DNA from: Rufibacter latericius
GTDB lineage: Bacteria > Bacteroidota > Bacteroidia > Cytophagales > Hymenobacteraceae
Reading direction: 5' to 3'
Assembly (NCBI RefSeq): GCF_003721515.1
Contig: NZ_RJJD01000008.1
Coordinates: forward strand, 565,666 to 629,665
DNA: 64,000 bases
Made by a program: the position numbers and the translations under genes. Below the pieces are notes generated by a model that worked only from the letters and a program-made list of their open reading frames with translations, had not been told where the DNA came from and made no database searches. Positions 40,266-56,751 of this stretch are shown here, piece by piece. The number at the start of each line of letters is the position of its first letter. The stretch's first letter is position 1.

Positions 40266-41130
40266 AAAACAGCCTTAGCGGGTTGTAGAAGAAAAGATAA
40301 AATCAGACAAGGTAAGTAGGCCTTACTAGTCCCCTGGCTCCAACCGACGGAGGTCAAACCCCAAGCCCTTGCTTCAAACCCTTGCCGGGAGTCCAAACAC
40401 GTTTCAGTTCTGGAGCATTGAATTTCCAGTAGTATTCCCTTGCTTCACCTAAGGATCACTTGTCTTTTTCCCTTTAAGTACCTAAATAAAAATCACAAAT
40501 CCATCATTTTACCTTTAATGTGTGTGTTCGTGCACATATATGATAAATCTTTGCGTCTTCGAACACATTTTACACCAAAGTTCTTGCTTATCTAATTTAT
40601 AGTAGTTATGTTTAAAACATAGATACATCAAAATCTCCCCATAAGAGAAGGCTCTGCAACGAAATCAATCCAAGGATTCAACGATCGCGCAGCCAGGAAG
40701 GGATAGGGTACTTGGGAGAGAGAAACATCGGTTTACCGACTGAACGGGTGCCTGGATAGCACTTTCCGTTTAAGGCTGCCAAAATTAGGGGTCACTTTCT
40801 TTCTAATAGATGGTGAACATGGTTCAGATTACTTCCTGTACATACTACAGAACCTAAACAATACCTAACAAACTTACCCTTATGGACAAAACCACCAACC
40901 CTCACTTCTATCTTCTTCCTGAAGGCAGACCTCAGAATCACCTTTAGGCTCGTCTTCCCAGAAGTTTAACTTTTGCCCTTATCATTTATTTGGGCAAAGA
41001 AGATCCTTTCATAAGACAAAGCCTTTTACCTGCTTCCCTTGCTCCTTTGCTTCAGGCTTGTGCCTTTCCGCAGTAGGCGCTCCTTCTCCTCTATTCGCTT
41101 GCTCTTATCATCACCATAAAAATGTAAAAC
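40266..41130. other. Intergenic region with long susC leader
   Basis: This 865-nt divergent space contains the paired operator-like palindromes (40523-40567). A frame of 21 codons at 40882-40947 (MDKTTNPHFYLLPEGRPQNH, then a final Leu) starts 183 nt before susC and could be a leader peptide or the relic of a mutated SusC start. Nothing else is recognised. Confidence 0.5.
40523..40567 (+). promoter_or_regulatory. Paired operator-like palindromes upstream of susC
   Basis: Site A is TGTGTTCGTGCACA (40523-40536) and site B CGTCTTCGAACACA (40554-40567), separated by 17 nt. A weak -7-like AATCTTTG (40546-40553) sits between them. Both sites have a central CG flanked by TGTG/CACA-type ends, as expected for LacI-family operators. 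The same arrangement is at 56707-56751. Confidence 0.7.
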
Positions 41131-44100
41131 ATGAAAAGAATGGTACACCAATTTTTGAAGCTCACGTTTCTGATGCTTTTTCCTGTTCTGCAGGTAATGG
41201 CCCAGGACCGAACCGTGACAGGTACCGTAACCGGCAAAGAAGATGGCCAGGCATTGGCTGGGGTTAGCGTAGTGGTAAAAGGAACCACCAACGGCACTAC
41301 CACCGACCCAAGCGGGGCCTTCAGCATACAGGTACCTAACCCAGATGCCACCCTGGTGTTCTCTTTCATAGGGCTTATCTCACAGGAGGTACCGGTCCAG
41401 AACAGGTCAACCCTTAACATCCAGATGGCGCAGGACCGAAAAGCCCTGGATGAGGTAGTGGTGGTGGGCTACGGCACCCAGAAGAAAAGAGACCTCACGG
41501 GGGCCATCAGTTCAGTGAAAGCCGAGGATCTGGTGGTGAACTCCGGCGCAGCTTCCATCGGGCACATGCTAAAGGGAAAAGCCGCGGGCCTGATGATTCG
41601 GGAAAACAGCGCCCAGCCCGGCGGCGGACTGGATATCCTAATTAGAGGAGCCGGCTCCATCAACGCCAGCAACGCCCCTCTGATTGTGGTAGACGGATTC
41701 CCTATCTCAGACTTACAGCAACCAGAAAGCGGCGGACGGTATCAGGCGGGCACGCAGAGCATTTTAAATTCATTTAACCCAAATGACATTGAATCTGTGG
41801 AGGTCCTGAAAGACGCTAGCGCAACGTCTATCTACGGGGCCCGGGCTGCTAACGGGGTTATCCTTATCACCACCAAACGCGGGAAAGCCGGCAAAGCCGA
41901 AGTCCAGTACTCCAACACCTTCTCGGTGCAGAAATACGACAATCCTTTTGATGTGCTGCCGCTGAACGAATGGATGCAGGTACGCAACGAGGCCGCCTGG
42001 GAGCGCTGGAACTTTGACAACAACGTTTTCCCTTACGGCAACCGAACGCTGGAAGAAGCTCAAGCCGATCCCGTTAATGGGCCATTTCGCAGATTATACA
42101 CCCAAAACGCCATCAACAACGTGGGTAAAGGCACCGATTGGGTAGGCCTGGTTACCCGTGACGGAACTATCCAGCAGCACAATCTTTCCTTGACTGGCGG
42201 CACAGAATCTACCCGCTTCCTCCTCTCGGGTAACTATTACAAGCACAACGGGGTCATCAAAAACTCCGGCATTGAGCGGTTCACCGTTAGGGCCAACATA
42301 GACCAGGAGGTCAATAAATACATCAAGTTCGGGTTGAACCTCACCGCCAGCCGCATCAACAACGATAACAGCCAGTTGGGCGGCGACCAATTTGAAAACT
42401 CAGGCATCATACGGGCGGCCATGCAAATGGGTCCGCACATCAAACCTATCGATGAGAACGGCAACTACCCGGTGAACCCGCTGCTGGCCCTTCAGCCTAA
42501 CCCTTACTCCTTGCTCACCATTTCTGACGAGGGCCGCATAGAGCGCATGTTGCTCAACTCCTTCGTGGACATCATTCCCATTCCAGACCTCACCATTAGG
42601 TTGAAAGGCGGTATGGACCGGGGCCTTACCAAGCGCTGGAACTACCTGCCCAAAACTACCATCCACGGGGCCTTGGAATTCGGGCGGGCTTCCATTGCCG
42701 AAACCGATAAAAATGAATACCTGATGGAGGCAACCGCTTCTTATGTGAAGGCAATCGGTACAGATCACCGCCTCAACCTGCTGGCAGGTGTTTCCCAACA
42801 GAATTTTTACAACGACTACAACAACGTAGGCAACACCAACTTCATTTCAGACGCTTTCCTGTGGAACAACCTGGGAGCTGGCAGCAGCACCAAAACCGTG
42901 GGTTCTTCCCGCTCTGAGAACGTCATGGCCTCCTACTTCGGAAGGCTGAACTACACCCTGAAAGACCGCTACCTGCTCACCTTGACGGTAAGGACCGACG
43001 GGGCCAGCGTATTTGCCCGTAACAACAAGTGGGGTACTTTCCCCTCCATCGCGGTGGGTTGGAACATCGCCGAGGAGCAATTCTTCGGGAGCCTGGCCAA
43101 CGTGGTTTCTCAGTTCAAACTCAGAGCTAGTTACGGGCAAACTGGGAACGCCTCCATTGGGAGCAATGCTTTTGCCGCCTACTACGCCTACCCTGCCTGG
43201 CTTTCGGGCAATGACACGCGCCTGATTGGGGTATCATTGTCAAGATTAGAAAACCCGGACCTGAAGTGGGAAACCACCACAGAGGCGAATTTGGGGCTGG
43301 ATTTCTCGCTCTTCAACGGCAGAATAGACGGTTCATTGGAAGTGTACGACAGAGTTATTTCAGACCTGCTGGCCTTTAAACCCATCAACTCCTACCATCC
43401 TATTAACACCGTGATGGCCAACGTGGGCGAAACCCAAAGCAAAGGCTTTGAATTGACCGTGAGCACCCGCAACATGCAAACCAGTGATTTTGAATGGAGA
43501 TCCATCTTCACCTTCTCCAAATTCAAAAACAACTGGAAAGAACGGGCCCCAGACTGGAAACCGGCCGTTTACCAGAATGTAGATGACCCTATCAGAGCCA
43601 TTTACGCACGTGAGGCGGACGGAATCATGCAGGTGGGCGAAGACGTTCCTTCCCAGCCGGAGCTGAAACCCGGCATGATCAAAATCAAAGACATCAACGG
43701 CTATGTGCGTGACGCCAACGGCAACCCGGTGGTAGACGAAAACGGCAGGTTCCAGCGCACCGGAGCTCCTGACGGGATGATTGACGATGCCGATACCCGA
43801 CTGATCGGGACCTCAGACCCCAGCCTGATTGTGGGCATGACCAACATCTTCACCTACAAAGGCTTCAGCCTGAACCTAGATTTCAACGGCATGTTCGGGC
43901 GCAAAATGGCCGATCCCAATTTCACTACTTACGGCATCAGTGCAGACGGCATCTACACCTACGGGTACAACGCCCTGAGCACCGTGAAGAACCGCTGGAC
44001 TCCTGAGAACCCCTCTACCACCCAGCCCAGTTCTTTCTATGGCTGGTCACCTTACAGCGTAGGTGATTTCTTTCTCCAAGATGCCTGGTTTATTCGGTTG

Positions 44101-44295
44101 CAGAACGTTGCGCTGTCCTACTCTTTGCCATCAAAATGGACCGGAAAGGTATTCTCCAGAGCCTCTATCCACGTGGCTGCCCAGAACCTGTTCGTGATCA
44201 CGCCCTATGATGGCATTGACCCGGAAACCGATGCCTACACGGCCGCTTACCCTAACGTGAAAACCATCACCACGGGCATCAACCTGACTTTCTAA
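41131..44295 (+). CDS. SusC/RagA-family TonB-linked outer-membrane transporter
   Basis: This 1054-residue protein has a signal peptide ending near VMAQ, then a carboxypeptidase-regulatory-like domain (VTGTVTGKEDGQALAGVSVV), the TonB-box/plug region (LDEVVVVGYGTQKKRDLTGA, IRGAGSINASNAPLIVVDGF, NDIESVEVLKDASATSIYGA) and a long C-terminal 22-stranded barrel ending in TTGINLTF. It imports oligosaccharides across the outer membrane with energy from TonB/ExbBD. susD overlaps its stop. It is the core transporter of the putative polysaccharide utilisation locus. Confidence 0.96.
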   Translation: MKRMVHQFLKLTFLMLFPVLQVMAQDRTVTGTVTGKEDGQALAGVSVVVKGTTNGTTTDPSGAFSIQVPNPDATLVFSFIGLISQEVPVQNRSTLNIQMAQDRKALDEVVVVGYGTQKKRDLTGAISSVKAEDLVVNSGAASIGHMLKGKAAGLMIRENSAQPGGGLDILIRGAGSINASNAPLIVVDGFPISDLQQPESGGRYQAGTQSILNSFNPNDIESVEVLKDASATSIYGARAANGVILITTKRGKAGKAEVQYSNTFSVQKYDNPFDVLPLNEWMQVRNEAAWERWNFDNNVFPYGNRTLEEAQADPVNGPFRRLYTQNAINNVGKGTDWVGLVTRDGTIQQHNLSLTGGTESTRFLLSGNYYKHNGVIKNSGIERFTVRANIDQEVNKYIKFGLNLTASRINNDNSQLGGDQFENSGIIRAAMQMGPHIKPIDENGNYPVNPLLALQPNPYSLLTISDEGRIERMLLNSFVDIIPIPDLTIRLKGGMDRGLTKRWNYLPKTTIHGALEFGRASIAETDKNEYLMEATASYVKAIGTDHRLNLLAGVSQQNFYNDYNNVGNTNFISDAFLWNNLGAGSSTKTVGSSRSENVMASYFGRLNYTLKDRYLLTLTVRTDGASVFARNNKWGTFPSIAVGWNIAEEQFFGSLANVVSQFKLRASYGQTGNASIGSNAFAAYYAYPAWLSGNDTRLIGVSLSRLENPDLKWETTTEANLGLDFSLFNGRIDGSLEVYDRVISDLLAFKPINSYHPINTVMANVGETQSKGFELTVSTRNMQTSDFEWRSIFTFSKFKNNWKERAPDWKPAVYQNVDDPIRAIYAREADGIMQVGEDVPSQPELKPGMIKIKDINGYVRDANGNPVVDENGRFQRTGAPDGMIDDADTRLIGTSDPSLIVGMTNIFTYKGFSLNLDFNGMFGRKMADPNFTTYGISADGIYTYGYNALSTVKNRWTPENPSTTQPSSFYGWSPYSVGDFFLQDAWFIRLQNVALSYSLPSKWTGKVFSRASIHVAAQNLFVITPYDGIDPETDAYTAAYPNVKTITTGINLTF

Positions 44296-44324
44296 TGAAT
44301 CAGCATACTTTAATTCAGACGACT

Positions 44325-45788
44325 ATGCGCAAAATACTTCTATCTTTTGCAATGCTCTTCCTGTTGGCCGGTTGCACAGAAGACCTTGATCCTATTGATT
44401 ACTCTGAGATAAACCCCAGCATCTTTCCGCAATCAGAGGCAGATGTGGAAGCCATGGTGAATGCCTGCTATTATCCGCTGCGCGGCGCCTGGGGCGACGG
44501 CATCCATACCACGTCAGAGAACGGCATCATGTACATCAATGACGCCACCACCGAGATCCTGAACGGCTCCTACGGTCCGCAAATGCTCGCTTCTCTCCAC
44601 AACTACAAGCCCACCGACGAAGGCATTACCCGTTTTTACGATGTCTTCTACAACAAAATCAGCTTGATGACCCTCACCATTGACCTGATCAACAAATCAC
44701 AGGTGAGCGAGGCAGTGAAGAAGAAGGCAATTGCTGAAATACGTGCCGCAAGAGGGTTACTCGCCTATGAGTTGTTTGACATGTATGGTCCATTGGTGAT
44801 CGCTCCGTTGGAGGTCTTGCAGAACCCCATGGAAGAAGCGCCGCTGGCCCGCCTCTCACATGAAGAAACGGTCGCCTTCATAGAGGCTGACCTAGCAGCC
44901 GCTGCCGAAGACCTGCCCCACCCTGCCCAAGCCGAGTACGGACGTTTTAGCAAGGGTTTGGCCAAAATGGTGCAAATACGCCTGAACCTGCACGAAAAAA
45001 ATTGGAGCAAGGTAGTAGAGCTGTCCAATGAGATTATTGGTTATGGCTACTATTCGCTTACCCAAGACTACGAAAGCATGTGGGATCTGGAAGGCGCCAA
45101 GAACAGCCGCGAAGTCATCTGGGCTATCCCCTGTGATTATGAGGGAACCAGCGAAAACCAGTGGCAGCTGATGGTACTGCCTTCCAACTATCCGGTAAAA
45201 GGCGGTTGGGGTACCATCCAGAGCACTTGGTGGTTCTATGATACCTTTGAGGAAGCCGACGAAAGAAAAACCATGCTGATTGCCGAATACACCGGCACCG
45301 ACGGCAACACCTACAACCGGGCCAATCCCGGAACCGTGATGAATCTGGGCCCTATTCCTTTGAAAATCAACCCAGATGCCTCCAGAACCACTGCCATTTC
45401 CACGGTAGACATCATCTTGTACCGCTACGCCGATGTGCTGTTGTCTAAGGCCGAAGCCTTGGCCAATGCCGCCGGTGCCCCTACTGCCGAGGCTATGGAA
45501 CTGGTGAACATCGTGCGCCGGAGAGCAGAACTGCAGGACAAAAACCTGGGCGATTACAGCTCCTTGGCTGCCTTCAACGACTTGATCCTGTTGGAGAGAA
45601 GCCACGAATTCTGGTGCGAGAACGGCCAGTACCGCGCCGACCTCATCCGCCACGGTAAGTTCGTGGAACGGGCCCGGGAAGTGAAAGGATCAACCTACAC
45701 TAACGAAGACAAGGTTCTCTACCCCTTCTCTTTGAGGGCCGTGAGCGAAGGCAAAGGGAAATTCATCCAGAACAAAGGCTACAACTAA
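44325..45788 (+). CDS. SusD/RagB-family surface glycan-binding lipoprotein
   Basis: The start at 44325 gives 487 residues with a standard lipoprotein signal (FAMLFLLAGCTED). SusD features follow: the N-terminal SusD-like region (YYPLRGAWGDGIHTTSENGI) with TPR-like helices (KKAIAEIRAARGLLAYELFD, a motif typical of RagB) and the C-terminal RagB segment (YRYADVLLSKAEALANAAG, LLERSHEFWCENGQYRADLI). An in-frame ATG at 44295 overlaps the susC stop (TAATG) and would add ten residues. SusD caps the SusC barrel and selects the glycan ligand. Confidence 0.95.
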   Translation: MRKILLSFAMLFLLAGCTEDLDPIDYSEINPSIFPQSEADVEAMVNACYYPLRGAWGDGIHTTSENGIMYINDATTEILNGSYGPQMLASLHNYKPTDEGITRFYDVFYNKISLMTLTIDLINKSQVSEAVKKKAIAEIRAARGLLAYELFDMYGPLVIAPLEVLQNPMEEAPLARLSHEETVAFIEADLAAAAEDLPHPAQAEYGRFSKGLAKMVQIRLNLHEKNWSKVVELSNEIIGYGYYSLTQDYESMWDLEGAKNSREVIWAIPCDYEGTSENQWQLMVLPSNYPVKGGWGTIQSTWWFYDTFEEADERKTMLIAEYTGTDGNTYNRANPGTVMNLGPIPLKINPDASRTTAISTVDIILYRYADVLLSKAEALANAAGAPTAEAMELVNIVRRRAELQDKNLGDYSSLAAFNDLILLERSHEFWCENGQYRADLIRHGKFVERAREVKGSTYTNEDKVLYPFSLRAVSEGKGKFIQNKGYN

Positions 45789-45796
45789 GCATTGAG

Positions 45797-45825
45797 GGGA
45801 AAGGCATTGATCGCTTGCCTTTCCC
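45797..45825 (+). terminator. Hairpin after susD
   Basis: GGGAAAGGCA (45797-45806) pairs with TGCCTTTCCC (45816-45825) over a 9-nt loop. There is no T tract, so it may be a partial terminator or RNA-stability element within the operon. Confidence 0.45.
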
Positions 45826-45882
45826 GCCCCTACCCTTCAGGAGGATTTAACCCCAGAAATACCCAGTATCCCTGAAATTCAC

Positions 45883-47274
45883 ATGAGAGAATTGCCTAGA
45901 ATGAGAGGAAAAAACATGTTGACCGTTTTCATCCTGAACCTACTGCTAACGGGTTTTTCGGGCTGCTCCAGCGGTAGCGAGGAACCAGAACCGGTGGTTC
46001 AGCCTAAACTCACGTACGCGTTATCCAACGAGATTTTCCCGAATCCGGAACGGGGTTTCATGCACCTGTTTCCGGCCTCTTCTGAGGGAACTCCGCTGAA
46101 TCCGGCTACGCTCACCTCTCTGAAAAACAATAACCTCTCGCTCATCCAGCGGGTCTACTATCTGGAGAAGTTCAAGGATGCACCGCTCAGCGCAGCCCAG
46201 CTTTCCCTGATTCAGACCGATATGGATTTGATCCGTCAGGCGGGTTTGAAGTGCGTGCTCCGGTTTGCCTACACAGACCAGATGAACGGCACCGATGCTC
46301 CGCTGGCCATCATTGAACAGCATCTTGACCAACTCAAAACCCCTTTCGAAGCCAACAAAGACGTGATTGCGTTTGTGCAGGCCGGTTTCATCGGGCCTTG
46401 GGGCGAGTGGCACAACTCTACCAATGGCCTCAATACCCCTGAGAACGAGAAAAGAATCCTATTTAAATTGCTGGACGTGCTACCCACCGAGTTGATGGTA
46501 CAGGTGAGAACACCGGGCAAAAAGCAGCAGATTTTCGGGACTACTTCTCCCCTGAGCAAATCGGTGGCGTATACCGCTGACAAGGTGGCGCGCGTGGGGC
46601 ATCACAATGACTGCTTCATGTCCGGCGGCACCAACTACGGCACATACAACAACATCCAGACAGATAAAACTTACATCAGCAACGAGGCGCTGTACGTGCC
46701 CACCGGGGGCGAGACTTGTCCGCCCCAAGGCGGCTACAACCCTAACTGCACCCAAGGCCGCACCGAGATGCAGCTTCTGAAATGGACCTACCTTAACCTG
46801 GACTACTACCAGCCTACCCTGAACGCCTGGCGGAATTCGGGCTGTTTTGACGAATTCCAGCGAAATCTAGGATACCGGTTGGCACTGGTAGATGCCACGT
46901 TGGCAGCCCAGGCGGGCACCAACCAAGCCTACAAACTGGAGATCAACCTCACCAACAAAGGATACGCGCCGCTGTACAGCCTCAAGAACACCTACCTGGT
47001 CTTGAAAAACAAGGCCTCGGGGGCGCTCCATCAGGTGCAGGTGCCCGTGGACCTGCGCGAAGTCAAGCCCGGCACCACCTACAAGCTGGACCAAAGCGTG
47101 AACCTAACCGGCATTCCGGCGGGCGACTATGACCTGTTCCTCAAAATCACTGATCGGGCCGAGTCCCTGAAAGACCGGCCGGAATACAGCATCCGGCTGG
47201 CCAACACCGATGTTTGGGTAGCCGAGAGCGGCCTGAACAACCTGAAACACCAGTTGAAAATAGGGAGCATGTAA
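45883..47274 (+). CDS. DUF4874/DUF4832 lipoprotein, candidate glycan-active enzyme
   Basis: The 463-residue protein has a lipoprotein signal (LLLTGFSGCSS). The N-terminal domain fits DUF4874 (NPERGFMHLF, AGLKCVLRFAYTD, VQAGFIGPWGEWHNS) and the C-terminal one DUF4832 (MVQVRTPGKKQQIF, ARVGHHNDCFMSGG, VPTGGETCPP, SGCFDEFQRNLGYRL). These families are predicted to be barrel-like and are found in Bacteroidota glycan loci, with no proven activity known to me. The conserved Glu in WGEW and in GGETC are candidate catalytic acids. It is the first of two paralogues in this operon. Confidence 0.85.
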   Translation: MRELPRMRGKNMLTVFILNLLLTGFSGCSSGSEEPEPVVQPKLTYALSNEIFPNPERGFMHLFPASSEGTPLNPATLTSLKNNNLSLIQRVYYLEKFKDAPLSAAQLSLIQTDMDLIRQAGLKCVLRFAYTDQMNGTDAPLAIIEQHLDQLKTPFEANKDVIAFVQAGFIGPWGEWHNSTNGLNTPENEKRILFKLLDVLPTELMVQVRTPGKKQQIFGTTSPLSKSVAYTADKVARVGHHNDCFMSGGTNYGTYNNIQTDKTYISNEALYVPTGGETCPPQGGYNPNCTQGRTEMQLLKWTYLNLDYYQPTLNAWRNSGCFDEFQRNLGYRLALVDATLAAQAGTNQAYKLEINLTNKGYAPLYSLKNTYLVLKNKASGALHQVQVPVDLREVKPGTTYKLDQSVNLTGIPAGDYDLFLKITDRAESLKDRPEYSIRLANTDVWVAESGLNNLKHQLKIGSM

Positions 47275-47324
47275 GCAGCACCCCTGACCCAAGAACCAAT
47301 TGCACTACTTAACGCATCAGAGAC

Positions 47325-48173
47325 ATGAAAAACAAACTACTACTCTTCTTTGGCTTGAGCTTTCTGCTGCTGGCCACCTTTTCCTGTGAGGAAGACGACG
47401 AAACCTCCGGCACCAAGGCGGTTTTCAGCTACGTAGCCGATGGCTTTGTGGTCAACTTCACTGATTTCTCCCAGAATGCCTCTGAGTACCTCTGGGACTT
47501 TGGTGATGACAGCGAGCCTTCCGTGCAATCCAACCCCACGCACATCTACAACAGAAAAGGCGATTACCTGGTGACGCTCACCGTTTCTAACAACGGCCAA
47601 ACCAGCACTTTCCAGGATTCGGTGTACGTGCTGGGCCCCAACATCAAAATTGACGGCGATTTCACCGATTGGGAGCACGTGCCCTACTCCCACACCAATG
47701 ACGAAGGCACCGGCGGCACCCTGCTGGCTGTTAAAACCTTCGCCTCGGCGGGAGCCTTGAACTTCTACCTGGAGGGCACCCAGGATTTCTCTATGGCCGT
47801 GATTGACCTGTACCTGGATGCTGACAACAACCCCGAAACCGGCCTCAAAACCTGGATGTACCCTGCCGCCGCCGGTGCCGATTTCCTATTTGAAGGCAAT
47901 CCATCGGCGGGAAGCGTTTTTGCCCACGTGGGTCCCGGCAACGACTGGGCCTGGAACGAAGTGGCCACCTTTGGCGAACGCATGCAGTTTTCGGCTATGA
48001 AAACCGTCAGCGGTAAAAAAGTAGTGGAATTCTCTATTAAACGCGAAGGACTGGGCACCATGAAGAATTTCGCCAACTTCGCCATTGTGGAAATGAACTC
48101 AGGTTGGACCGAAGTAGGCGATCTGCCAGACAGCAAGCAAGCCACCTCTAAGTTTGCCCAGATAGAATTATAG
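47325..48173 (+). CDS. PKD-domain lipoprotein with CBM9/DOMON-like C-terminus
   Basis: The 282-residue protein has a lipoprotein signal ending at LLATFSC. A PKD domain spans about residues 30-105 (FTDFSQNASEYLWDFGDDSE, HIYNRKGDYLVTLTVSNNG). A second domain begins at IKIDGDFTDWEHVPY, the common opening of CBM9-like/DOMON sugar-binding modules, and continues with AVIDLYLDADNNPETGLKTW. It is positioned like the SusE/SusF surface glycan-binding proteins of other loci. It lies between the two DUF4832 genes. Confidence 0.82.
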   Translation: MKNKLLLFFGLSFLLLATFSCEEDDETSGTKAVFSYVADGFVVNFTDFSQNASEYLWDFGDDSEPSVQSNPTHIYNRKGDYLVTLTVSNNGQTSTFQDSVYVLGPNIKIDGDFTDWEHVPYSHTNDEGTGGTLLAVKTFASAGALNFYLEGTQDFSMAVIDLYLDADNNPETGLKTWMYPAAAGADFLFEGNPSAGSVFAHVGPGNDWAWNEVATFGERMQFSAMKTVSGKKVVEFSIKREGLGTMKNFANFAIVEMNSGWTEVGDLPDSKQATSKFAQIEL

Positions 48174-48188
48174 AGCCAGCCTCTTAGG

Positions 48189-48226
48189 TGTTTCGGGCCT
48201 GTTTTCCGCAAAATAGGCCCGAAACA
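48189..48226. repeat. Dispersed palindromic element, copy 18
   Basis: TGTTTCGGGCCTGTTTT and AAAATAGGCCCGAAACA form a 17-bp stem with one G-U pair and loop CCGC. It lies between the PKD gene and the second DUF4832 gene and rules out a longer N-terminus for the latter. Confidence 0.8.
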
Positions 48227-48325
48227 ATTAAGAGTAAACTAACCTGCTTTCGCTTCGCTGAACCAGAATCAATGTTTGAGTTCCTGTGTCAGCGTCTCCA
48301 TCTGTTCCACCCAGCCTCCTTCTAC

Positions 48326-49861
48326 ATGCCAAACGAACCAACCATCCTTTCTATCCGCAAGAGCAGCTTCATTATGGGCCTTCTCCTCGCGCAGCTCTTT
48401 ATGGTGCCTATCGGCCAGGCCCAGACCAAAATCACCTACACGGAGAGCACCGAGGATTTCGCCAACCCGGAAAGGGGTTTTTACCTGGCCTCCGGCGGAA
48501 AACCGGGCACCTTGTCCTCAGAGGAACTGACCAAGCTGAGGAACCTTCCAGCCACCCAGAACATCACCCCCAGCGCCAAATACTCGGCCAAGGTAACATT
48601 GGTGTACCGCGGCTACCTGCTCTCAGATTTCAAAACCAAACCCATCAGCGAAGAAATTTTGCAGTTAATCCGCCGGGATATGGACGCTACCCGGAAAGCG
48701 GGCCTGAAAATGATTTTGCGGTTTGCCTACACCAATGACACCAAAGCGGGCGACTGCAAAGACGACTACAAAATCTGCCCGCCCTACGGCGATGCTTCCA
48801 AGCCCGTTGTACTGCAACACATCGCGCAGCTCAAACCTATATTCCAGGAAAACGCCGATGTGATTGCCGTCTTGCAGCAGGGCTTTATTGGCATCTGGGG
48901 CGAGAACTACTTCACAGATTATTTCGGGGACGCTTCTAACAACGGGCAAGGCGTCATCAATGACAGCAGCTGGCTCAACCGCAATGAGGTCACCAAGGCC
49001 CTTCTGGACGCGCTGCCCAAAAACCGGATGGTGCAGGTGAGAACGCCCCAAATGAAGCAGCGGTTTGTCTACGGTCCCAAAGCGCCGGTGACCTCCAACC
49101 CCATCTCTGAACAGGAAGCCTTCACCCAGGAAGACCGCGCCCGCGTAGGGCTGCACAATGACTGTTTCCTGGCCAGCGAAGACGATTACGGCACCTTTGC
49201 TGACTACGGCAACTCTTCCACCAAGCGGGGGCCGGCCAACGAGGTCATGCGCAAATACTTCGAGGCCGAGAGCAAGTACGTAGCCGTAGGCGGCGAAACC
49301 TGCGACAATGCTTTCAGCCCCCAGAACGACTGCGCCCCCGCCGGACACGCCGAGCAGGAAATGGCCGCCATGCACTACAGTTACCTCAACAGCTCCTACA
49401 ACAACCAGGTGAACAATGATTGGGTCACCGGCGGCTGCATGGACAACATCAAACGAAGATTAGGCTACCGGATCACCCTGAGATCAGCTACGTTGCCCGA
49501 AAAAGTCAAGAAAGGGAAAACCCTGCCCATCGCGTTGAATCTGGAAAACACCGGTTTCGCCTCTCCTTACAACCCGCGTCCGGTGCAGCTGGTCCTGCGG
49601 AATAAAAGATCCGGTCAACTGCATGTGCTTCCCCTCACCTCCGAGATCAGAAAATGGTTTCCCGGGCAAGTCACCGTCTCTCAGGAACTGACCTTGCCTG
49701 CTTCTTTGGCCAAAGGCGAATATGATGTGCTGCTCAACCTCCCGGATTCCTACGAAAGCCTCTCCAAACGCCCGGAATACAGCATCCGGCTCGCCAACAA
49801 CGATGTCTGGGAAGAGAACACCGGCTTCAACCGCTTGAACCATACTATTAAGATAAATTAG
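48326..49861 (+). CDS. Secreted DUF4874/DUF4832 protein, paralogue of 45883-47274
   Basis: The start at 48326 gives 511 residues with a signal peptide ending at VPIGQAQ. It aligns with the first paralogue throughout: ANPERGFYLASGG, AGLKMILRFAYTN, VLQQGFIGIWGENYF, MVQVRTPQMKQRF, ARVGLHNDCFLAS, VAVGGETCDN and GGCMDNIKRRLGYRI. WGE, HNDCF and GGETC are invariant between the two. There are extra cysteine-containing insertions (GDCKDDYKICPP, QNDCAPAG). It is not lipidated, so it is likely periplasmic or released. The function is unknown; a glycosidase-like role is inferred from context. Confidence 0.84.
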   Translation: MPNEPTILSIRKSSFIMGLLLAQLFMVPIGQAQTKITYTESTEDFANPERGFYLASGGKPGTLSSEELTKLRNLPATQNITPSAKYSAKVTLVYRGYLLSDFKTKPISEEILQLIRRDMDATRKAGLKMILRFAYTNDTKAGDCKDDYKICPPYGDASKPVVLQHIAQLKPIFQENADVIAVLQQGFIGIWGENYFTDYFGDASNNGQGVINDSSWLNRNEVTKALLDALPKNRMVQVRTPQMKQRFVYGPKAPVTSNPISEQEAFTQEDRARVGLHNDCFLASEDDYGTFADYGNSSTKRGPANEVMRKYFEAESKYVAVGGETCDNAFSPQNDCAPAGHAEQEMAAMHYSYLNSSYNNQVNNDWVTGGCMDNIKRRLGYRITLRSATLPEKVKKGKTLPIALNLENTGFASPYNPRPVQLVLRNKRSGQLHVLPLTSEIRKWFPGQVTVSQELTLPASLAKGEYDVLLNLPDSYESLSKRPEYSIRLANNDVWEENTGFNRLNHTIKIN

Positions 49862-50118: not shown

Positions 50119-50203
50119 ACGCTCTTAGCAGACGCAGTTGACGGAGCTGAACAGCATCTTTCAATTTCCGTTCTCACCCTCAATTATTAAAAAGCTTGGT
50201 CCC

Positions 50204-50238
50204 GTTTCAAGGCTGTTTTCAGAAAATAGCCTTAAAAC
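50204..50238. repeat. Dispersed palindromic element, copy 20
   Basis: The left arm GTTTCAAGGCTGTTTTC and the right arm AGAAAATAGCCTTAAAAC are embedded in a longer imperfect palindrome that adds GGT-CCC/GAACCGGG. It lies 30 nt past the GH109-like gene stop. Confidence 0.65.
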
Positions 50239-50268
50239 AGAACCGGGCTTACTTTTGGGGGATCTTTA

Positions 50269-51711
50269 CTAGGCTCTCACATTCGTAGTTCCGCCGCCTT
50301 GCAGGGTGAGTTCTACTGGTTTGTTTTTCTGCCAGGCACCAACGGTGAAATCAGGCACGTCAATGGAGTTGGAGCGGTTGGCTACGGACCACTCGCTGAG
50401 TGGCGCGACGGAGCTCCAAAGAGCGGCATCGTACACATCCTGGTCCAGCGGCAGGCCGTTGCGGAGGCAGTCTACCAGGCGCCATTCCATGAGGAAGTCC
50501 ATGCCGCCGTGGCCGCCAATCTTCTTGGCCATCTCGCCTAGTTTCTTGATGAGCGGCGGCGTGTACTGCTCTTCCACTTTCTTGAACTGCTCCGGCGAGA
50601 GCCAGTCCTCGTGGCTGGAGGCGATGCGGGCGGGATCAGGCCATTTCTGGGCTGCGCCTTTGGTGCCACTTACTAGGTGAATGCGGGAGTAAGGACGCGT
50701 GGAAGAGACATCGTGCTGGATCATGATGGTTCTGCCCCGCTTGGTTCTGATGGTGGTGGTGTTCATGTTTCCCCGGAAATTCATTTGTGCGAACTCCTGG
50801 TAAAAATTGTCTTTAGCAGCTAGCTCCTTCGCTTTAGGTCTCATGGAGAAATCGTTGGAAGACACGGAGGTGAGATAATCCATCTGGTCACCGCGGTTGA
50901 TGTCCATGACCTGGCAGATAGGCCCTAGGCCGTGGGTTGGGTACAGGCTGCCGTTGCGGCCGTTTTCCTTCAGGCGCCACATGTTGTAGTAGGCCTCCTC
51001 GGTATCGCTGGTTTTGGCGAAGTTCAGGTCAATGAGGTTGTGGATGTAGGCGCCCTCGCCGTGCACCAGTTCCCCGAAGAATCCCTGCCGGGCCATGTTG
51101 AGCGTGAGCATCTCGAAGAAATCATAGCAGCAGTTCTCCAGCATCATGCAATGCTTTTTGGTGCGCTCAGATGTCTCCACCAATTGCCAGCATTCCTCCA
51201 GGGTTTTGGCGGCGGGTACCTCCACCGCTACGTGTTTGCCGTGTTCCATGGCGTAAACGGCCATGGGCGTATGCAGGTGCCAGGGCGTTGCGATGTACAC
51301 CAAATCAATATCGTCTCGGTTGACCATTTCCTTCCAGGCGTCTTCTTTGCCCGAGTAAGTCACCGGCTTATGGATGGAGCCTTCAATTTTCTTCAGAGTA
51401 GCTGCTACCCGTTCCGGCCGAATGTCACAGAGCGCATTGATCTCCACCCCTTCAATGTGGTTCAAGCGTACCACCGAGGCGGGTCCGCGCATGCCCAACC
51501 CGATGTAGCCCACCCGCACTTTGTCCATTCTTGGCGCGGCGTACCCGCTCATGTTGAAGTTCTGCCGATGCGTTTTCTTCGCCTGCGTCTGAATTTGCTG
51601 TAAGGCACCACCCGGCGCCGAGGAGGCACAGCCGCTGATGAAACCACTGCTGACCAGGCCCACGCCCGCCAGACCCGCCAGCTTCAAAAAGTCTCTCCGA
51701 TCGTTACTCAT
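50269..51711 (-). CDS. GH109-like Gfo/Idh/MocA-family Tat lipoprotein
   Basis: The 480-residue protein begins with a twin-arginine motif DRRDFLK (Arg5-Arg6) and a lipobox-like FISGC (Cys28). The NAD-binding Rossmann opens with VRVGYIGLGMRGPASV near residue 65. The body follows the GH109 pattern: YIATPWHLHTPMAVYAMEHG, VEVPAAKTLEECWQLVETSE, LENCCYDFFEML, THGLGPICQVMDINRGD and IGGHGGMDFLMEWRLVDCL. GH109 enzymes are NAD+-dependent alpha-N-acetylgalactosaminidases; Tat export fits folding with the cofactor bound. It is the last gene of the nag-type operon. Another Gfo/Idh oxidoreductase activity is possible. Confidence 0.85.
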   Translation of the reverse strand: MSNDRRDFLKLAGLAGVGLVSSGFISGCASSAPGGALQQIQTQAKKTHRQNFNMSGYAAPRMDKVRVGYIGLGMRGPASVVRLNHIEGVEINALCDIRPERVAATLKKIEGSIHKPVTYSGKEDAWKEMVNRDDIDLVYIATPWHLHTPMAVYAMEHGKHVAVEVPAAKTLEECWQLVETSERTKKHCMMLENCCYDFFEMLTLNMARQGFFGELVHGEGAYIHNLIDLNFAKTSDTEEAYYNMWRLKENGRNGSLYPTHGLGPICQVMDINRGDQMDYLTSVSSNDFSMRPKAKELAAKDNFYQEFAQMNFRGNMNTTTIRTKRGRTIMIQHDVSSTRPYSRIHLVSGTKGAAQKWPDPARIASSHEDWLSPEQFKKVEEQYTPPLIKKLGEMAKKIGGHGGMDFLMEWRLVDCLRNGLPLDQDVYDAALWSSVAPLSEWSVANRSNSIDVPDFTVGAWQKNKPVELTLQGGGTTNVRA

Positions 51712-51809
51712 AGATATTTTTCTTTGTGGGGTTAAAGAGCTAAGCTTAATTCAGAAACAGGTTCTCCCAACACTGGCATACAGATCTTTCCTGCTAAAGA
51801 AGGAAGATG

Positions 51810-51845
51810 GTTTTGAGGCCGATTTCCCAGAATCAGGCCCAAAAC
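51810..51845. repeat. Dispersed palindromic element, copy 21
   Basis: The left arm is GTTTTGAGGCCGATTTCC and the right arm CAGAATCAGGCCCAAAAC. It separates the GH109-like gene from the CBM9-like gene within the operon. Confidence 0.65.
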
Positions 51846-51875
51846 AGCCGAGAGTTTTCATGCGACTTCCTTCCG

Positions 51876-52526
51876 CTACAGAAACTGCAGTTCCCCGAAA
51901 TACTCCGGCAGATGGAAGTTGGGCGCGGCGGCTTTGATGCCGTTCCAGGTCAGGTAATGGGGCTGGGGCAGGTCATCACCGCACTTATAGAAGTTCACCT
52001 TGCAGCTTTGTTCGTTCAGGGAGGTAAAGCCATGGAAACAGAAAACCTCCACCGGGATCACCAGCGTCAGTTCCCACTTAACTGCAGCTTCCTTATCTGT
52101 CTCCTCGCTCACCGATAGCTGGGCGTACCGTTTTATCTCCTTTATGACTGACTCTGACAGGAACTGGCGGTTCTCTTTTTCGGAGCCGTAGGCCATGAGG
52201 CAAGAACCCAGGCTATTGAACTCCAGATTGTAATAGGCTTTCTCGTCATTGAAGGCGATGAACAACTCCACGCAGCTGTCGCGGTACACGGGGTCGTTGG
52301 TTTTGCGGAACACGGCCCTGATGGCGGCTTCCTCCACATAGAACTTCACAAAGAAGCAGTCGTTGCTGTGGGCTACGGAAAACCACACGAAAGGCTTATA
52401 GGGGTAATCGGGCCAGGGTGCAGTGTCTATGGCATGTTTTTCCAATATGTCCAACTGATCGGAGACTTCCTGCAAGCCAGATTCACGATCTAGCCGAAAT
52501 AAAAGCGGCACGTCTAATTGCTTCAT
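51876..52526 (-). CDS. CBM9-like carbohydrate-binding protein without signal peptide
   Basis: The start at 52526 gives 216 residues. The family-9-like sugar-binding pattern is visible: YKPFVWFSVAHSNDCFFVKF, NDPVYRDSCVELFIAFN, YYNLEFNSLGSCLMAYGSE, and the ending NFYKCGDDLPQPHYLTWNG plus FHLPEYFGELQFL. These proteins are usually secreted, but no signal peptide is evident, so it may be cytoplasmic or start elsewhere. It begins 7 nt after the nahK stop, so co-transcription is likely. It probably binds a mono- or oligosaccharide; no catalysis is assumed. Confidence 0.8.
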   Translation of the reverse strand: MKQLDVPLLFRLDRESGLQEVSDQLDILEKHAIDTAPWPDYPYKPFVWFSVAHSNDCFFVKFYVEEAAIRAVFRKTNDPVYRDSCVELFIAFNDEKAYYNLEFNSLGSCLMAYGSEKENRQFLSESVIKEIKRYAQLSVSEETDKEAAVKWELTLVIPVEVFCFHGFTSLNEQSCKVNFYKCGDDLPQPHYLTWNGIKAAAPNFHLPEYFGELQFL

Positions 52527-52533
52527 GGGTGCA

Positions 52534-53682
52534 TCAGGCTTTGGTGGATATTTCGGCCAGCCGGGTTTCCTGCACAACTTTCTCTAAAATGGCTTGAAGC
52601 GCCGATTGCTGCGCCTCCAATTGCTTCACCAACTGAAACTGCGCGCGGCACCGCTGCAGGTTATGTTCTGGGAAATGGATCTTGTAGTAATGGTCGCCGT
52701 CAATGTAATCGGTGAGGAAGCGCAGGCCCATGATAAAGGGCAGCAACAATACCCCGTGCAACAAAGAAGCGATCTCGGAATCAGTGAGGGCGCTGCTGGT
52801 CTCTTCCAGGAAACCTTTGGCGAAGGCCTCGAACAAGGAAAGGTCTACCTGGATTCTCTCCAGTTGCGGTTCGTCCTCGGGCGCAGTATTGACGGTGGTC
52901 CGGATGGCGTCCCCGAAGTCATAGGCCACGTACCCGGGCATCACCGTATCCAGATCGATAACACATTGCGCTTTTCCGTCCTTGCCCAGGAGCACGTTGT
53001 TGAACTTAGTGTCATTGTGGGTGATGCGCAACGGCAACTCTCCTTTTTGGCCCATGTAATAGATGGTGCTCATGGCCTGGGCGCGTTCTTCCACAAAAGC
53101 GATTTCAGCTTCTACTTCCGCTACCCTCCCTACCGGATTGGCTTGTACGGTCTCCCGGAACAGCCGTAGCCGGTTCACTACGTTATGGAAATCGGGGATG
53201 GTATCGTGCAACAACTCTACGGGCAGGTCAGACAACAGGGCCTGGAACTTCCCGAAGGCCTTACCACCTTCGTAGGCTTGCGCCGGGGTAGTCACCATGT
53301 CATGCCCAAAAGTGCCATCCAGGAAAAGATACATGCGCCAGTAGTTACCCTCTTCGTCGTGGTAAAACCATTTCTGGTGCACGGTTGGAATAAGGGTGAG
53401 TACTTCTTTTTGGGGCTTCGCGTCTGGCAGGCCCTCCAGTTTTTGACGCAGGTGGGTGGTCACCACCTGAATGTTGTCCATAAGGGCCGGCACGTTCTTG
53501 AAGACATGATGGTTCACGCGCTGCAGCAGGTAATCTGGAGCATCGGCTTGGGAATTCACCACCTGAAAAGTATCATGGATGTGCCCCGAGCCATACGGCA
53601 CTACCTTGGCGACTCCCCCCTTAAGGGTGAATTGCGCCAGGATGGAAGGTACTTTGCCGTCAAGCGTTCCTATCTGTCTCAT
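52534..53682 (-). CDS. N-acetylhexosamine 1-kinase-like (NahK) phosphotransferase
   Basis: This 382-residue APH-fold kinase has GSGHIHDTFQV near residue 32, YLLQRVNHHVFKNVPALMDN, the catalytic loop ITHNDTKFNNVLL and the metal loop CVIDLDTVMPGYVAYDFGDA, a combination characteristic of NahK/LnpB of the lacto-N-biose pathway. NahK phosphorylates C1 of GlcNAc or GalNAc. It is placed between a sugar-1-phosphate nucleotidyltransferase (stop 1 nt upstream) and the CBM9-like gene. The order kinase plus nucleotidyltransferase supports HexNAc-1-P to UDP- or other NDP-HexNAc conversion. Confidence 0.86.
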   Translation of the reverse strand: MRQIGTLDGKVPSILAQFTLKGGVAKVVPYGSGHIHDTFQVVNSQADAPDYLLQRVNHHVFKNVPALMDNIQVVTTHLRQKLEGLPDAKPQKEVLTLIPTVHQKWFYHDEEGNYWRMYLFLDGTFGHDMVTTPAQAYEGGKAFGKFQALLSDLPVELLHDTIPDFHNVVNRLRLFRETVQANPVGRVAEVEAEIAFVEERAQAMSTIYYMGQKGELPLRITHNDTKFNNVLLGKDGKAQCVIDLDTVMPGYVAYDFGDAIRTTVNTAPEDEPQLERIQVDLSLFEAFAKGFLEETSSALTDSEIASLLHGVLLLPFIMGLRFLTDYIDGDHYYKIHFPEHNLQRCRAQFQLVKQLEAQQSALQAILEKVVQETRLAEISTKA

Positions 53683-53683
53683 G

Positions 53684-54604
53684 TTATCGTACGGTTTCTG
53701 AATTCTTTTTCCATAGCTGCTCAGGGTAAACGCCTGCTGCTACCAGCCTCCTCAGCGACTCCACGGCCACGGGTTTATCTTCTGGATAGGTCACGCCAAA
53801 CCATTTCTCGGAGGTAGGCAGCAGCTTCACCTGGGTAACTCCGGCTTTTACTAGTTTGTCCAGTACCAGCGGCAGGAAAAATTCTGCCTTAGGCACCTGG
53901 GCACTTTTCTGGAGAAATGCGGTAAGATACTCTTCAAAATACGGCAGCAGGTCTGGTGAAAATCCCATCAGGTTCATTGATACCAATTGGTCTGGGGCCA
54001 GCGGAATCTGTCCCTGGTCTGCACCAATGGCCACGATGCCCCCGTCGGTTTTCTCAATGTGTGTTTGCTCGGTAATGCCTATCAGGTTGCCGTCTTCATC
54101 TACCTCGCAGATGCCCCTGGAAACCGCCCCGTGCTCAGACAGGGTATTGGTCAGCAGATAACCCACCAAACCGCATTTTTCGTCCCTTTTCAGGAAATCG
54201 GCCATAATCTGGAAAGACTGGTAACCGTAGAAATCGTCTCCGTTGATCACCGCAAAAGGCTCGGTGAGACTGGCCCGGGCTACCCACACGGCATGGGCCG
54301 TTCCCCAGGGTTTCACCCTTTCGGCCGGCACGGTAAAGCCCGGGGGCAGCACATCCAGTTCCTGAAGCACATATTCTACCTTCACCTCCGGAGGAAACTT
54401 GCCCTGCATGGCGGCTTTGAATTCTTTTTCAATGGATTGCCGGATGATGAACACCACTTTCCCGAAACCGGCCCTGAGGGCATCATAGATAGAATACTCA
54501 ATGATGGTTTCCCCGTTGGGGCCAAAGGATTCCAATTGTTTTAAGCTCCCGTAGCGGGTGGCCATGCCGGCCGCCAAGACCAGTAATGTTGGTTTTACCT
54601 CCAT
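53684..54604 (-). CDS. Sugar-1-phosphate nucleotidyltransferase
   Basis: This 306-residue NTP-transferase has an N-terminal LLVLAAGMATRYGSLKQLES as the nucleotide-binding signature (a variant of GxGxRxG), then EFKAAMQGKFPPEVKVEYVL, the Mg2+-binding AVINGDDFYGYQSF, and YLLTNTLSEHGAVSRGICEV. It resembles the family seen next to NahK-type kinases in Bacteroidota. It probably converts a HexNAc-1-phosphate plus UTP to UDP-HexNAc; the nucleotide is not certain. Its stop is 1 nt from the nahK start and it lies 83 nt after nagB. Confidence 0.84.
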   Translation of the reverse strand: MEVKPTLLVLAAGMATRYGSLKQLESFGPNGETIIEYSIYDALRAGFGKVVFIIRQSIEKEFKAAMQGKFPPEVKVEYVLQELDVLPPGFTVPAERVKPWGTAHAVWVARASLTEPFAVINGDDFYGYQSFQIMADFLKRDEKCGLVGYLLTNTLSEHGAVSRGICEVDEDGNLIGITEQTHIEKTDGGIVAIGADQGQIPLAPDQLVSMNLMGFSPDLLPYFEEYLTAFLQKSAQVPKAEFFLPLVLDKLVKAGVTQVKLLPTSEKWFGVTYPEDKPVAVESLRRLVAAGVYPEQLWKKNSETVR

Positions 54605-54618
54605 TTGAAGACCGTTGT

Positions 54619-54654
54619 GTTTTTGAATCGTTTTACAGAAAATGCCCCTGAAAG
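54619..54654. repeat. Dispersed palindromic element, copy 22
   Basis: The left arm is GTTTTTGAATCGTTTTAC and the right arm AGAAAATGCCCCTGAAAG. It fills the gap between nagB and the nucleotidyltransferase gene. Confidence 0.55.
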
Positions 54655-54687
54655 AGATTAAATGCTTTGCTTCACCCCTGACGGTCC

Positions 54688-56601
54688 TTAAAAGAGATAG
54701 CGTTTGAAAGCTTCCATGGCCTCGTACTCGGTGAGCCCCAGGCGGTCATAGATCCGGGCGGTGGCGCGGTTCCTTTCCTCGGCGCGCTGCCAGAACTCCC
54801 GCTTGTCATTTCCCGGGAAAACTGGGCTGTCTTTCTGCGATTGGTGCTTGAAAATGGCCTTGCGTTTCCGGAGCAGCTCCTCGGGGCTGATGGGCACTGC
54901 CATCTCAATGTCTTCGATGTCCCACTCCTGCCAGGCGCCACGGTACAGCCATACATAGCAGTCCTGCATCCAGGGTTCGTGCTTCAGGCGATCAATGGCT
55001 TCCAGGATGGCATTGAGGCACACGCGGTGCGTGCCGTGCGGATCTCTCAGGTCGCCGGCGGCGAAGATCTGCTGAGGCTGAACCTTGTTTAACAGGTCTA
55101 CCACCGCCTGCACATCTGCCTGGCTCAACGGTTTTTTCTTCACCTGCCCTGTTTCATAGAAAGGCATGTTCATGAAGTGAATATTCTCTTTCTTTACCCC
55201 GCAAAACCGGCAGGCGGCCAGGGCCTCGCTCTGCCTGATGAGGCCTTTGATGCTCTGCACCATCTCCGTATCCTCGGCACCCAATTTCTTTTGTTCCAGA
55301 AACTCCTCTACCTGGGTGTGCATATTCTGAAACTCCTGCGTGGCAATTCCCAGCTTTCTGGAAAGGCCTAGCGCAAAATCAGCGAACCGGTGGGCATCGT
55401 CATCAAACACGGCAATGTTCCCCGAGGTCTGGTAAGCAACGTGTACCTGATGGCCCTGGTCGGCGAGCCGGATCAAGGTGCCGCCCATGGAGATGACGTC
55501 ATCATCTGGGTGCGGACTGAAAATCAGGGAAGTTTTGGGAAACGGGTTGGCGCGCTCGGGCCGGTGGCTGTCATCGGAGTTGGGTTTGCCGCCGGGCCAA
55601 CCAGTAATGGTGTCCTGGATGGCGTTGTGCACCTGTATGTTCAGGCTGTAGGCAGAACCTACCTGTACCAGCAAATCGGTGAGGCCCCAGGTGCGGTAGT
55701 CTTCATCGGTAAGTTTCAGGAGGGGTTTGTTGGCTTGCAGGCTGAGCCAGATCACGGCCCGCCGCATGAGGTTTTTATCCCAGTCGCAGAGGCCCACGAG
55801 CCAGGGCGTTTTGATGCGGGCCAGCTCAGAGGCAGCCCATTGGTCCAGGATGACGCTCACCCGCTCGTGGTGCTGCAAAAAAGAAGCGGGCACCTCTTCG
55901 GTGATTTTCCCCTCCACCATCTGCCGCACAATTGATGCTTTGCCTTCGCCCCAAGCCATCATGATGATTTTTCGGGCTTTCATGATGGTGCCCACGCCCA
56001 TGGTGATGGCCCGCAGGGGTACAAACTCTTCTTTGATGAAATCCTTGGTGGCATCGGCGATGGTGAGTGGGTCTAATTTCACCAACCGGGTGTGGGACGT
56101 TAACCCCGAGCCCGGCTCATTGAACCCAATGTGACCGGTACGCCCAATGCCCAGAAGCTGCACGTCAATTCCGCCGGCCTCCTCTATCAACTGCTCATAG
56201 GTCGCGCAAAACTCCGTCACCTTTTCTATAGGCAAAGAACCGTCCGGAATGTGCACGTTTTCAGGCAGAATGTCTATGTGCCTGAAAAGATGCTCCTGCA
56301 TGAAATGTACGTAGCTCTGCAAAGCATCGGGCGGCATGGGGTAATACTCGTCCAGGTTGAAGGTGACCACGTTCCTGAAACTCAGGTTTTCATCTTTGTG
56401 GAGGCGTACCAGTTCTTTGTACACCCCAATAGGGGAAGATCCGGTAGCCAAACCCAAGACCACCCTCTCTCCTTTCTTTTGCTTTTCCCTGATGATGCCC
56501 GCAATGGTATGGGCAATACTTTTACTTCCTTGCTCAGGGTTGTCAAAAATGGTGACCGGTAACTTCTCAAGTGCGGTGGTAGAAAAGGTTAGTATTTCCA
56601 T
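54688..56601 (-). CDS. nagB: Glucosamine-6-phosphate deaminase fused to PIG-L deacetylase domain
   Basis: This 637-residue two-domain protein is about 2.4 times the length of E. coli NagB. The deaminase half (about 1-290) has LGLATGSSPIGVYKEL, VTFNLDEYYPM (general-base Asp) and GIGRTGHIGFNEPGS, where the residue equivalent to Asp141 is Thr while His and Glu are kept. The second half is a PIG-L/LmbE deacetylase (SPHPDDDVISMGGTLIRLAD; AAGDLRDPHGTHRVCLNAIL). It converts GlcN6P to Fru6P plus ammonia; the PIG-L part may deacetylate a GlcNAc derivative. It is the first gene of the minus-strand operon, 106 nt downstream of paired operator-like sites. Confidence 0.92.
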   Translation of the reverse strand: MEILTFSTTALEKLPVTIFDNPEQGSKSIAHTIAGIIREKQKKGERVVLGLATGSSPIGVYKELVRLHKDENLSFRNVVTFNLDEYYPMPPDALQSYVHFMQEHLFRHIDILPENVHIPDGSLPIEKVTEFCATYEQLIEEAGGIDVQLLGIGRTGHIGFNEPGSGLTSHTRLVKLDPLTIADATKDFIKEEFVPLRAITMGVGTIMKARKIIMMAWGEGKASIVRQMVEGKITEEVPASFLQHHERVSVILDQWAASELARIKTPWLVGLCDWDKNLMRRAVIWLSLQANKPLLKLTDEDYRTWGLTDLLVQVGSAYSLNIQVHNAIQDTITGWPGGKPNSDDSHRPERANPFPKTSLIFSPHPDDDVISMGGTLIRLADQGHQVHVAYQTSGNIAVFDDDAHRFADFALGLSRKLGIATQEFQNMHTQVEEFLEQKKLGAEDTEMVQSIKGLIRQSEALAACRFCGVKKENIHFMNMPFYETGQVKKKPLSQADVQAVVDLLNKVQPQQIFAAGDLRDPHGTHRVCLNAILEAIDRLKHEPWMQDCYVWLYRGAWQEWDIEDIEMAVPISPEELLRKRKAIFKHQSQKDSPVFPGNDKREFWQRAEERNRATARIYDRLGLTEYEAMEAFKRYLF

Positions 56602-56706
56602 TGGCGTTGAGTTTAGAAAAGCGTGACCAGGAAAAAACCAGGAAAGATGATTTCTTTTCTAAACATAAAAACATTAAACAAGAATCACAAAGAAAAGCTG
56701 TACAAA

Positions 56707-56751
56707 TGTGTTCGAACACGCTAAAAAAAATTTCATTTGTGCACGTACACA
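56707..56751 (-). promoter_or_regulatory. Paired operator-like palindromes upstream of nagB
   Basis: On the minus strand, site A reads TGTGTACGTGCACA (56751-56738) and site B CGTGTTCGAACACA (56720-56707), separated by 17 nt. Compared with 40523-40567, 26 of 28 operator bases are identical, with the same spacer length and the same orientation towards the controlled gene. This is strong evidence for a shared regulator. Confidence 0.75.

Follow-up and report, generated by a model that had tools for sequence, protein, structure and literature searches.

Discussion of how Bacteroidota control their polysaccharide loci centers mostly on hybrid two-component systems, SusR-like regulators, and extracytoplasmic function (ECF) sigma factors. 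Here we analyzed a stretch of 64,000 nucleotides (nt) from Rufibacter latericius (Hymenobacteraceae; contig NZ_RJJD01000008.1, C23:565666-629665 in our numbering, hereafter the window), in which two similar tandem operator modules, one upstream of a susC gene and the other upstream of an operon beginning with a nagB-type gene, may be bound by a LacI-family regulator encoded in the same region.

Tandem operators of LacI-family proteins were catalogued in 2014, with intersite distances that peak at 13, 22, and 32 base pairs (bp), and the 22- and 32-bp peaks were interpreted as two dimers binding cooperatively (PMC4052901). Because pairs at 22 and 32 bp were recorded there, the two-site form in the window is not new. 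The catalogue and the window have even palindromes, a central CG, and paired sites in common, whereas the regulators that it names from Bacteroides are UxaR, UxuR, and KdgR, and neither a Hymenobacteraceae amino-sugar regulon nor a promoter-anchored geometry is seen in the available part of that work (PMC4052901). IpsA of Corynebacterium glutamicum, a LacI-type, inositol-dependent activator, binds upstream of −35 where it activates a gene and over −35/−10 where it represses one (PMC3899939). It resembles the system described here in its protein family, in having two sites in one target promoter (ino1), and in the placement upstream of −35, but it differs in phylum, effector, and target genes, and a fixed tandem geometry is not given for it in the portion of the report available to us. 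GalR at the external operator (OE) of Escherichia coli gal, −60.5, contacts RNA polymerase, inhibiting gal P1 and activating P2 (PMC4693257). This protein is also of the LacI family, and its operator lies at about the position of the proximal site (site B) in our modules; however, its second operator is at +53.5 and acts by looping, whereas here the second site is 31 bp upstream and a downstream site was not found in the window at up to three mismatches. NanR of Bacteroides likewise controls the use of sialic acid and N-acetylglucosamine in Bacteroidota but belongs to the ROK family, and the same source places polysaccharide loci under hybrid two-component systems and SusR-like regulators (PMC3878776). 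A search of the open-licence literature found no report of this regulator, operator word, or promoter geometry. The regulon is new and its kind is known; its promoter geometry is unusually regular.

Tandem operator modules and their promoters

The two modules, at 40523-40567 on the plus strand and 56751-56707 on the minus strand, are 45 nt each and contain two LacI-type palindromes apiece, a distal site A and a proximal site B, which are separated by a 17-nt spacer and lie 31 bp apart from start to start on both sides (Table 1). The susC and nagB modules have 26 of 28 operator bases in common. An earlier note on this DNA had described these modules, their LacI-like form, and their orientation toward the two genes, and each of these points held: the pattern was found again exactly as written at both coordinates, and the starts of susC (41131) and of the nagB-type gene (56601) lie downstream of site B, 564 and 106 nt from its end, respectively. 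The combined two-site pattern has two matches in the window and none in 100 dinucleotide-preserving shuffles, whereas single 14-mers at up to three mismatches are not significant by number (five vs 2.5 expected); four of these five are module sites, and the fifth lies at 1476. It is the pair of sites that is special, not the single 14-mers.

At the scale of the 5.67-Mb genome (G000), TGTGTTCGAACACA occurs at nine places with up to two mismatches, three of them inside the two modules, and the 14-mer count at three mismatches is uninformative (143 vs 127 for a reversed control). We scanned the genome with R1, a sequence-only model of the 45-nt module built from 15 modules. It returned two matches at E ≤ 1, both of them the window modules (E 1.5e-12 and 2.2e-12), whose scores are partly by construction because R1 was built with both; a third module was not found in the 5.67 Mb at E ≤ 1, and this is not by construction. 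The genome scan proposed in the earlier note thus placed the two-site motif at two places only, and random occurrence across the genome was not seen. The central CG is invariant in both sites of all 15 modules, which have the even palindromes of LacI/GalR operators, and the 31-bp spacing in the window puts the sites on about one DNA face, in the manner of tandem operators 22 or 32 bp apart. Elsewhere the spacing is 31-33 bp (modules of genus g6) or 30 bp (locus L173).

In both window modules, site B is followed by 16 nt, TTG, 20 nt, and TATGTTTA, predicted to be the −33 and −7 elements of a promoter. Strings of the form TTG-N18-21-TAnnTTTR occur ten times on the two strands of the window, and two of them are the module promoters. 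Throughout the 15 R1 modules, the −7 box stands 38-40 nt after site B with TTG 19 or 20 nt before it; 13 of the boxes are TATGTTTA or TAnnTTTG, and two are CATATTTG. Thirteen further full-length modules had been found without promoter information, and eight of them carry TTG-N20-TAnnTTTR at 38-40. For genus g6, 30 loci were fetched, of which two were excluded as members of the training set of a second model, R2, built from 14 modules. The remaining 28 were positioned solely by their operator score, and 25 of them show the same string at 38-41; these 28 loci are one each from related genomes and hence not independent. As for the misses, L215 and L216 are not modules, and L210 was misplaced by the scan and shows the layout at 39 by eye. 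The background rate of such promoters is 7.6e-4 per 4-nt window of intergenic DNA. Pontibacter has a proximal-type site before the kinase operon in 8 of 13 loci, all eight with TTG-N20-TAnnTTTA at an offset of 37-39; a distal site at 31 bp is present at none of the eight, and four have a weak partner 21 bp upstream by eye. The promoter-anchored geometry is found in several genera.

The positions of the operators follow from the register of the box. The TAnnTTTG box of Flavobacterium psychrophilum occupies −12 to −5 (PMC9723704). Because the box would lie at −12 to −5, site B is predicted to extend from −65 to −52 (center −58.5) and site A to be centered at −89.5, positions that rest on predicted starts and on the F. 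psychrophilum register. The predicted site B centers, −57.5 to −60.5, are near −60, upstream of the −33/−35 element, and at a nearly fixed distance from the promoter, which is a class I-type position. In neither window module does site B overlap the promoter core, its end being 16 nt away from TTG, unlike the site of an occluding repressor.

We also considered AATCTTTG, which in the window would place a promoter within the 17-nt spacer. This candidate was discarded, since it is disrupted in L014 and L018 and absent from the nagB spacers, whereas TTG-N20-TATGTTTA is kept in all 11 window-type modules (six on the susC side and five on the nagB side). Separately, in the susC modules of two congeneric genomes, G007 (L235:6012) and G009 (L237:8063), the promoter offset from site B is 30 nt instead of the usual 39, a difference of about one helical turn.

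Association with a LacI-family protein and with target genes

The gene at 37882-38952, which the earlier note had assigned to the LacI family, indeed matches hidden Markov models of both LacI/GalR domains, PF00356 at residues 9-53 and PF13407 at residues 70-329, and the best solved chain for its product is 3gbv, a putative LacI-family regulator (E 8.7e-47). Among named organisms, the nearest proteins come from seven Rufibacter and Sabulibacter loci (80-92% identity), and that of Rufibacter glacialis is 62% identical. We fetched 79 loci with this protein and kept 66 as orthologue loci, 13 distant ones being dropped before counting. These 66 loci contain 63 sites within two mismatches of TGTGTTCGAACACA. 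Control palindromes with identical half-site letters and a central CG, of which only 14 exist, gave 7.2 sites on average and 18 at most. All but two of the 63 sites (61/63) lie outside reading frames or no more than 30 nt from their edge, although the frames leave 18% of the DNA uncovered, and the spacing is 31 in 7 of the 17 site pairs found 14-80 bp apart.

Of 200 family genomes, 72 encode a LacI relative (E ≤ 1e-60) and 21 have an R1 match (E ≤ 0.01), every one of the 21 being LacI-positive (21/72 vs 0/128; Fisher p 5.6e-11); the LacI and R1 counts come from two draws of 200 genomes, taken as the same set. Restricting the count to full-length matches leaves 17/72 vs 0/128. Within the genus, the full module is present in 10 of 11 LacI-positive genomes and in none of five LacI-negative ones. 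When R2 was applied to genus g6, matches at E ≤ 1 were obtained in 34 of 35 LacI-positive genomes; 20 LacI-negative genomes yielded six with matches at this threshold, the best at 0.16 and none full length.

The modules also keep their target genes. Four relatives encode close orthologues (85-91%) of the nagB-type protein, and a module lies upstream of the window gene and of all four, whereas no pair at 31 bp was found at 25 other nagB-homologue loci. We inspected eight genomes around the modules (G001, G004, G007, and G009 of the genus; G023 of g4; G093, G165, and G208 of g6), and in all eight, sites precede a susC gene as well as the nagB fusion or, in its place, the nucleotidyltransferase-kinase-CBM9 genes; the susC side of G093 has the proximal site only. 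Since the SusC proteins beside these modules are only 25-32% identical to that of the window, differing transporters stand behind a conserved control element. The susC and nagB sides each retain their own operators, spacing, and promoter offset from species to species. The co-occurrence of module and LacI gene and the constancy of the target genes agree with the proposal of the earlier note that one regulator couples uptake and metabolism through two sites. Collectively, these sequence comparisons make it very likely that a shared LacI-family regulator governs both promoters, and because the same layout recurs in related bacteria, the uptake and breakdown operons are probably switched together.

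Mode and sign of control

The reading that we favor, with a probability of about 0.58, is that both modules would be tandem operators of the LacI-family protein encoded at 37882-38952, its presumed binder, with two dimers on about the same DNA face, 31 bp (three turns) apart. The dimers would be centered near −58.5 and −89.5 at two promoters, one serving the susC operon and the other the nagB-nucleotidyltransferase-kinase-CBM9-GH109 operon. The proximal dimer would touch RNA polymerase, and the distal dimer would strengthen the hold of the proximal one. In the presence of an N-acetylhexosamine or its phosphate, the presumed effector, the regulator would most likely activate both promoters together. 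The nearly constant distance between site and promoter suggests contact with RNA polymerase, and a site near −58.5 does not cover the promoter. The geometry, as predicted, points to activation or contact control rather than occlusion, the earlier note having left the sign aside, and we lean toward activation. Such a one-component LacI-family regulator appears to join outer-membrane uptake to cytoplasmic amino-sugar breakdown. The geometry predicts two start sites, a contact with RNA polymerase that depends on helical phase, and a position-dependent sign that orthologues may have reversed.

Several observations weigh against this reading. Most LacI-family proteins are repressors, and activator-dependent promoters are often weaker than near-consensus ones, while the g6 promoters closely match TTG-N20-TAnnTTTG. 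Fifty-one of the 72 LacI-positive family genomes have no R1 match at E ≤ 0.01, the match is partial in 4 of the 21 genomes that have one (G061, G073, G094, and G118) and is not beside the LacI gene in the first three, and G015 of the genus has LacI without a full module. The promoter layout is missed by five of the 13 further modules: L175 has its promoter at 30, L182 has a box at 39 without TTG, and L174, L180, and L181 gave no promoter by script at 38-40. Nor is there a box at 38-41 at the Adhaeribacter susC site L035:5063, and in L067, which is not of the family, a susC gene is preceded by a 32-bp pair that lacks the upstream promoter layout. The nagX side shows weak, inconsistent boxes by eye and none by the strict test, that is, no clean promoter. 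Finally, many of the modules compared are orthologous and hence not independent.

The chief alternative keeps the same regulator and sites but has them repress by contact from −58.5/−89.5, with the sugar releasing repression. Repression is the commoner mode of the LacI family, and both the near-consensus promoter elements of g6 and the Mucilaginibacter orthologue loci with a site over −33 (see below) are in its favor. GalR sets a precedent, since a LacI-family protein at −60.5 can also repress by contact, as it does from OE at gal P1 (PMC4693257); yet the upstream position is the one that IpsA occupies at the genes it activates (PMC3899939), and no further site capable of looping was found near either promoter at up to three mismatches, the fifth match in the window being that at 1476. 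We regard contact repression as unlikely. It is more improbable still that another transcription factor binds the modules and that the LacI gene is a bystander travelling with the neighborhood. The genome does encode seven further LacI-family homologues (E ≤ 0.001), but these align along part of the protein at only 25-31% identity. Moreover, LacI-family operators usually take the form seen here, an even palindrome with a central CG (PMC4052901), and in three genera (g1, g4, and g6) the LacI relative is accompanied by full modules despite the low identity of the SusC proteins noted above. That the modules are alike through recent copying of one DNA segment rather than selected control, as their 26 shared operator bases might suggest, is scarcely credible and already contradicted, given that the 17-nt spacers are unlike and that operators, spacing, and offset are conserved on each side across species.

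While activation is the favored mode in Hymenobacteraceae, a different placement is seen in other orthologue loci. The contrast set comprises 44 site rows, most of them from Mucilaginibacter and Pedobacter, with the loci of Rufibacter, Pontibacter, and Adhaeribacter set aside. TAnnTTTG follows the site by 10-13 nt in 14 of the 44 rows, before susC, nagX, GH109-type, or kinase genes, and these 14 are Mucilaginibacter or metagenome-assembled genomes (MAGs) grouping with it. Their sites span about −39 to −23 and cover the −33 box (predicted positions), which, on these predictions, is a repressor layout. Eight pairs in the contrast loci are 56-58 bp apart, three of them with a strict TAnnTTTG between the sites. 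In a LacI tree of 76 rows, a 39-row clade (support 100/98), mostly Sphingobacteriaceae with two Dyadobacter and some MAGs, falls among three groups of Hymenobacteraceae, which would make the activator layout the ancestral one; the deep forks of this tree have support of only 88/71 and 89/88, and some branches are long. We tentatively suggest that the orthologues may be opposite in sign, a contact activator in Hymenobacteraceae vs an occluding repressor in Mucilaginibacter and its kin (there in some cases using a further site 56-58 bp beyond the first), with the operator moved relative to the promoter and the pathway unchanged. A change of sign by operator relocation is possible on this evidence.

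Genes at the two loci and further observations

Table 1. Coordinates of operators, predicted promoter elements, and genes in the window
Feature	Position	Strand	Match or remark
Operator site A (distal), susC module, TGTGTTCGTGCACA	40523..40536	+	kept in five relatives
Operator site B (proximal), susC module, CGTCTTCGAACACA	40554..40567	+	direct match
Predicted −33 element TTG, susC promoter	40584..40586	+	16 nt after site B
Predicted −7 element TATGTTTA, susC promoter	40607..40614	+	39 nt after site B; predicted start ~40619
Operator site A (distal), nagB module, TGTGTACGTGCACA	56738..56751	-	direct match
Operator site B (proximal), nagB module, CGTGTTCGAACACA	56707..56720	-	direct match
Predicted −33 element TTG, nagB promoter	56688..56690	-	16 nt after site B
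Predicted −7 element TATGTTTA, nagB promoter	56660..56667	-	39 nt after site B; predicted start ~56655
LacI-family regulator, Peripla_BP_4 sensor domain; alternative open reading frame start TTG 39036	37882..38952	-	PF00356, PF13407
NagX-like (HGSNAT_cat) membrane protein, divergent from susC, upstream of lacI	39165..40265	-	
SusC/RagA TonB-linked outer-membrane transporter, predicted target	41131..44295	+	TIGR04056
SusD-like lipoprotein, same predicted operon as susC	44295..45788	+	PF07980
DUF4874/DUF4832 protein, PKD protein, second DUF4874/DUF4832 protein, downstream of susCD	45883..49861	+	
GH109-type protein (Glyco_hydro_109_C, GFO_IDH_MocA domains)	50269..51711	-	PF21252, PF01408
CBM9_2 protein	51876..52577	-	PF16011
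APH-type phosphotransferase, presumed sugar kinase	52534..53682	-	PF01636
Nucleotidyltransferase	53684..54604	-	PF00483
Glucosamine-6-phosphate deaminase-like/PIG-L fusion, first gene of predicted target operon	54688..56601	-	NF002557, PF01182, PF02585

The adjacent susC and susD genes, together with GH109-type and CBM9 domains, are those of a susCD polysaccharide utilisation locus. The gene families on the nagB side and the susCD, NagX, and LacI context, taken together, suggest that a glycan containing N-acetylhexosamine is taken up and broken down by the two gene sets, both the substrate and the operon limits being presumed. Behind susCD lie two proteins without known function that carry DUF4874 plus DUF4832 (45883-47274 and 48188-49861). 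DUF4832 also occurs as an accessory in some pel clusters of Gram-positive bacteria, and the presumed precursor of the pel polymer there is UDP-N-acetylgalactosamine (UDP-GalNAc) (PMC7112168). With a GH109-type gene present in the co-controlled set, the two proteins are candidates for enzymes of a GalNAc-rich polymer.

The susC leader is predicted to be long, about 0.5 kb from the predicted start to the ATG (40619-41130); its first 30 nt or so are kept in the window and five relatives, and the rest diverges. A GAGA...TCTC pairing is possible in four of six susC leaders. A riboswitch or other RNA in this leader found no Rfam support: a scan of the window gave nothing at gathering score, and 40266-41140 gave only a snoRNA match at chance level (E 0.76). 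Immediately before site A (40507-40513), TTTTACC or TTTACC is present in all six susC modules (window, L012, L013, L014, L015, and L018) and was not seen in the 20 nt upstream of the nagB modules; this element may belong to the divergent nagX promoter.

The operator word also appears beside other genes. In two Pontibacter loci (L024:3879 and L029:3901), a good site stands before a second LacI-family gene, 35% identical, as if the word had been shared with or handed to a paralogue. In Adhaeribacter (L035:9751 and L043:9680-9724), a site or module lies between lacI and a divergent gene that, by eye, resembles a GH20 beta-hexosaminidase.

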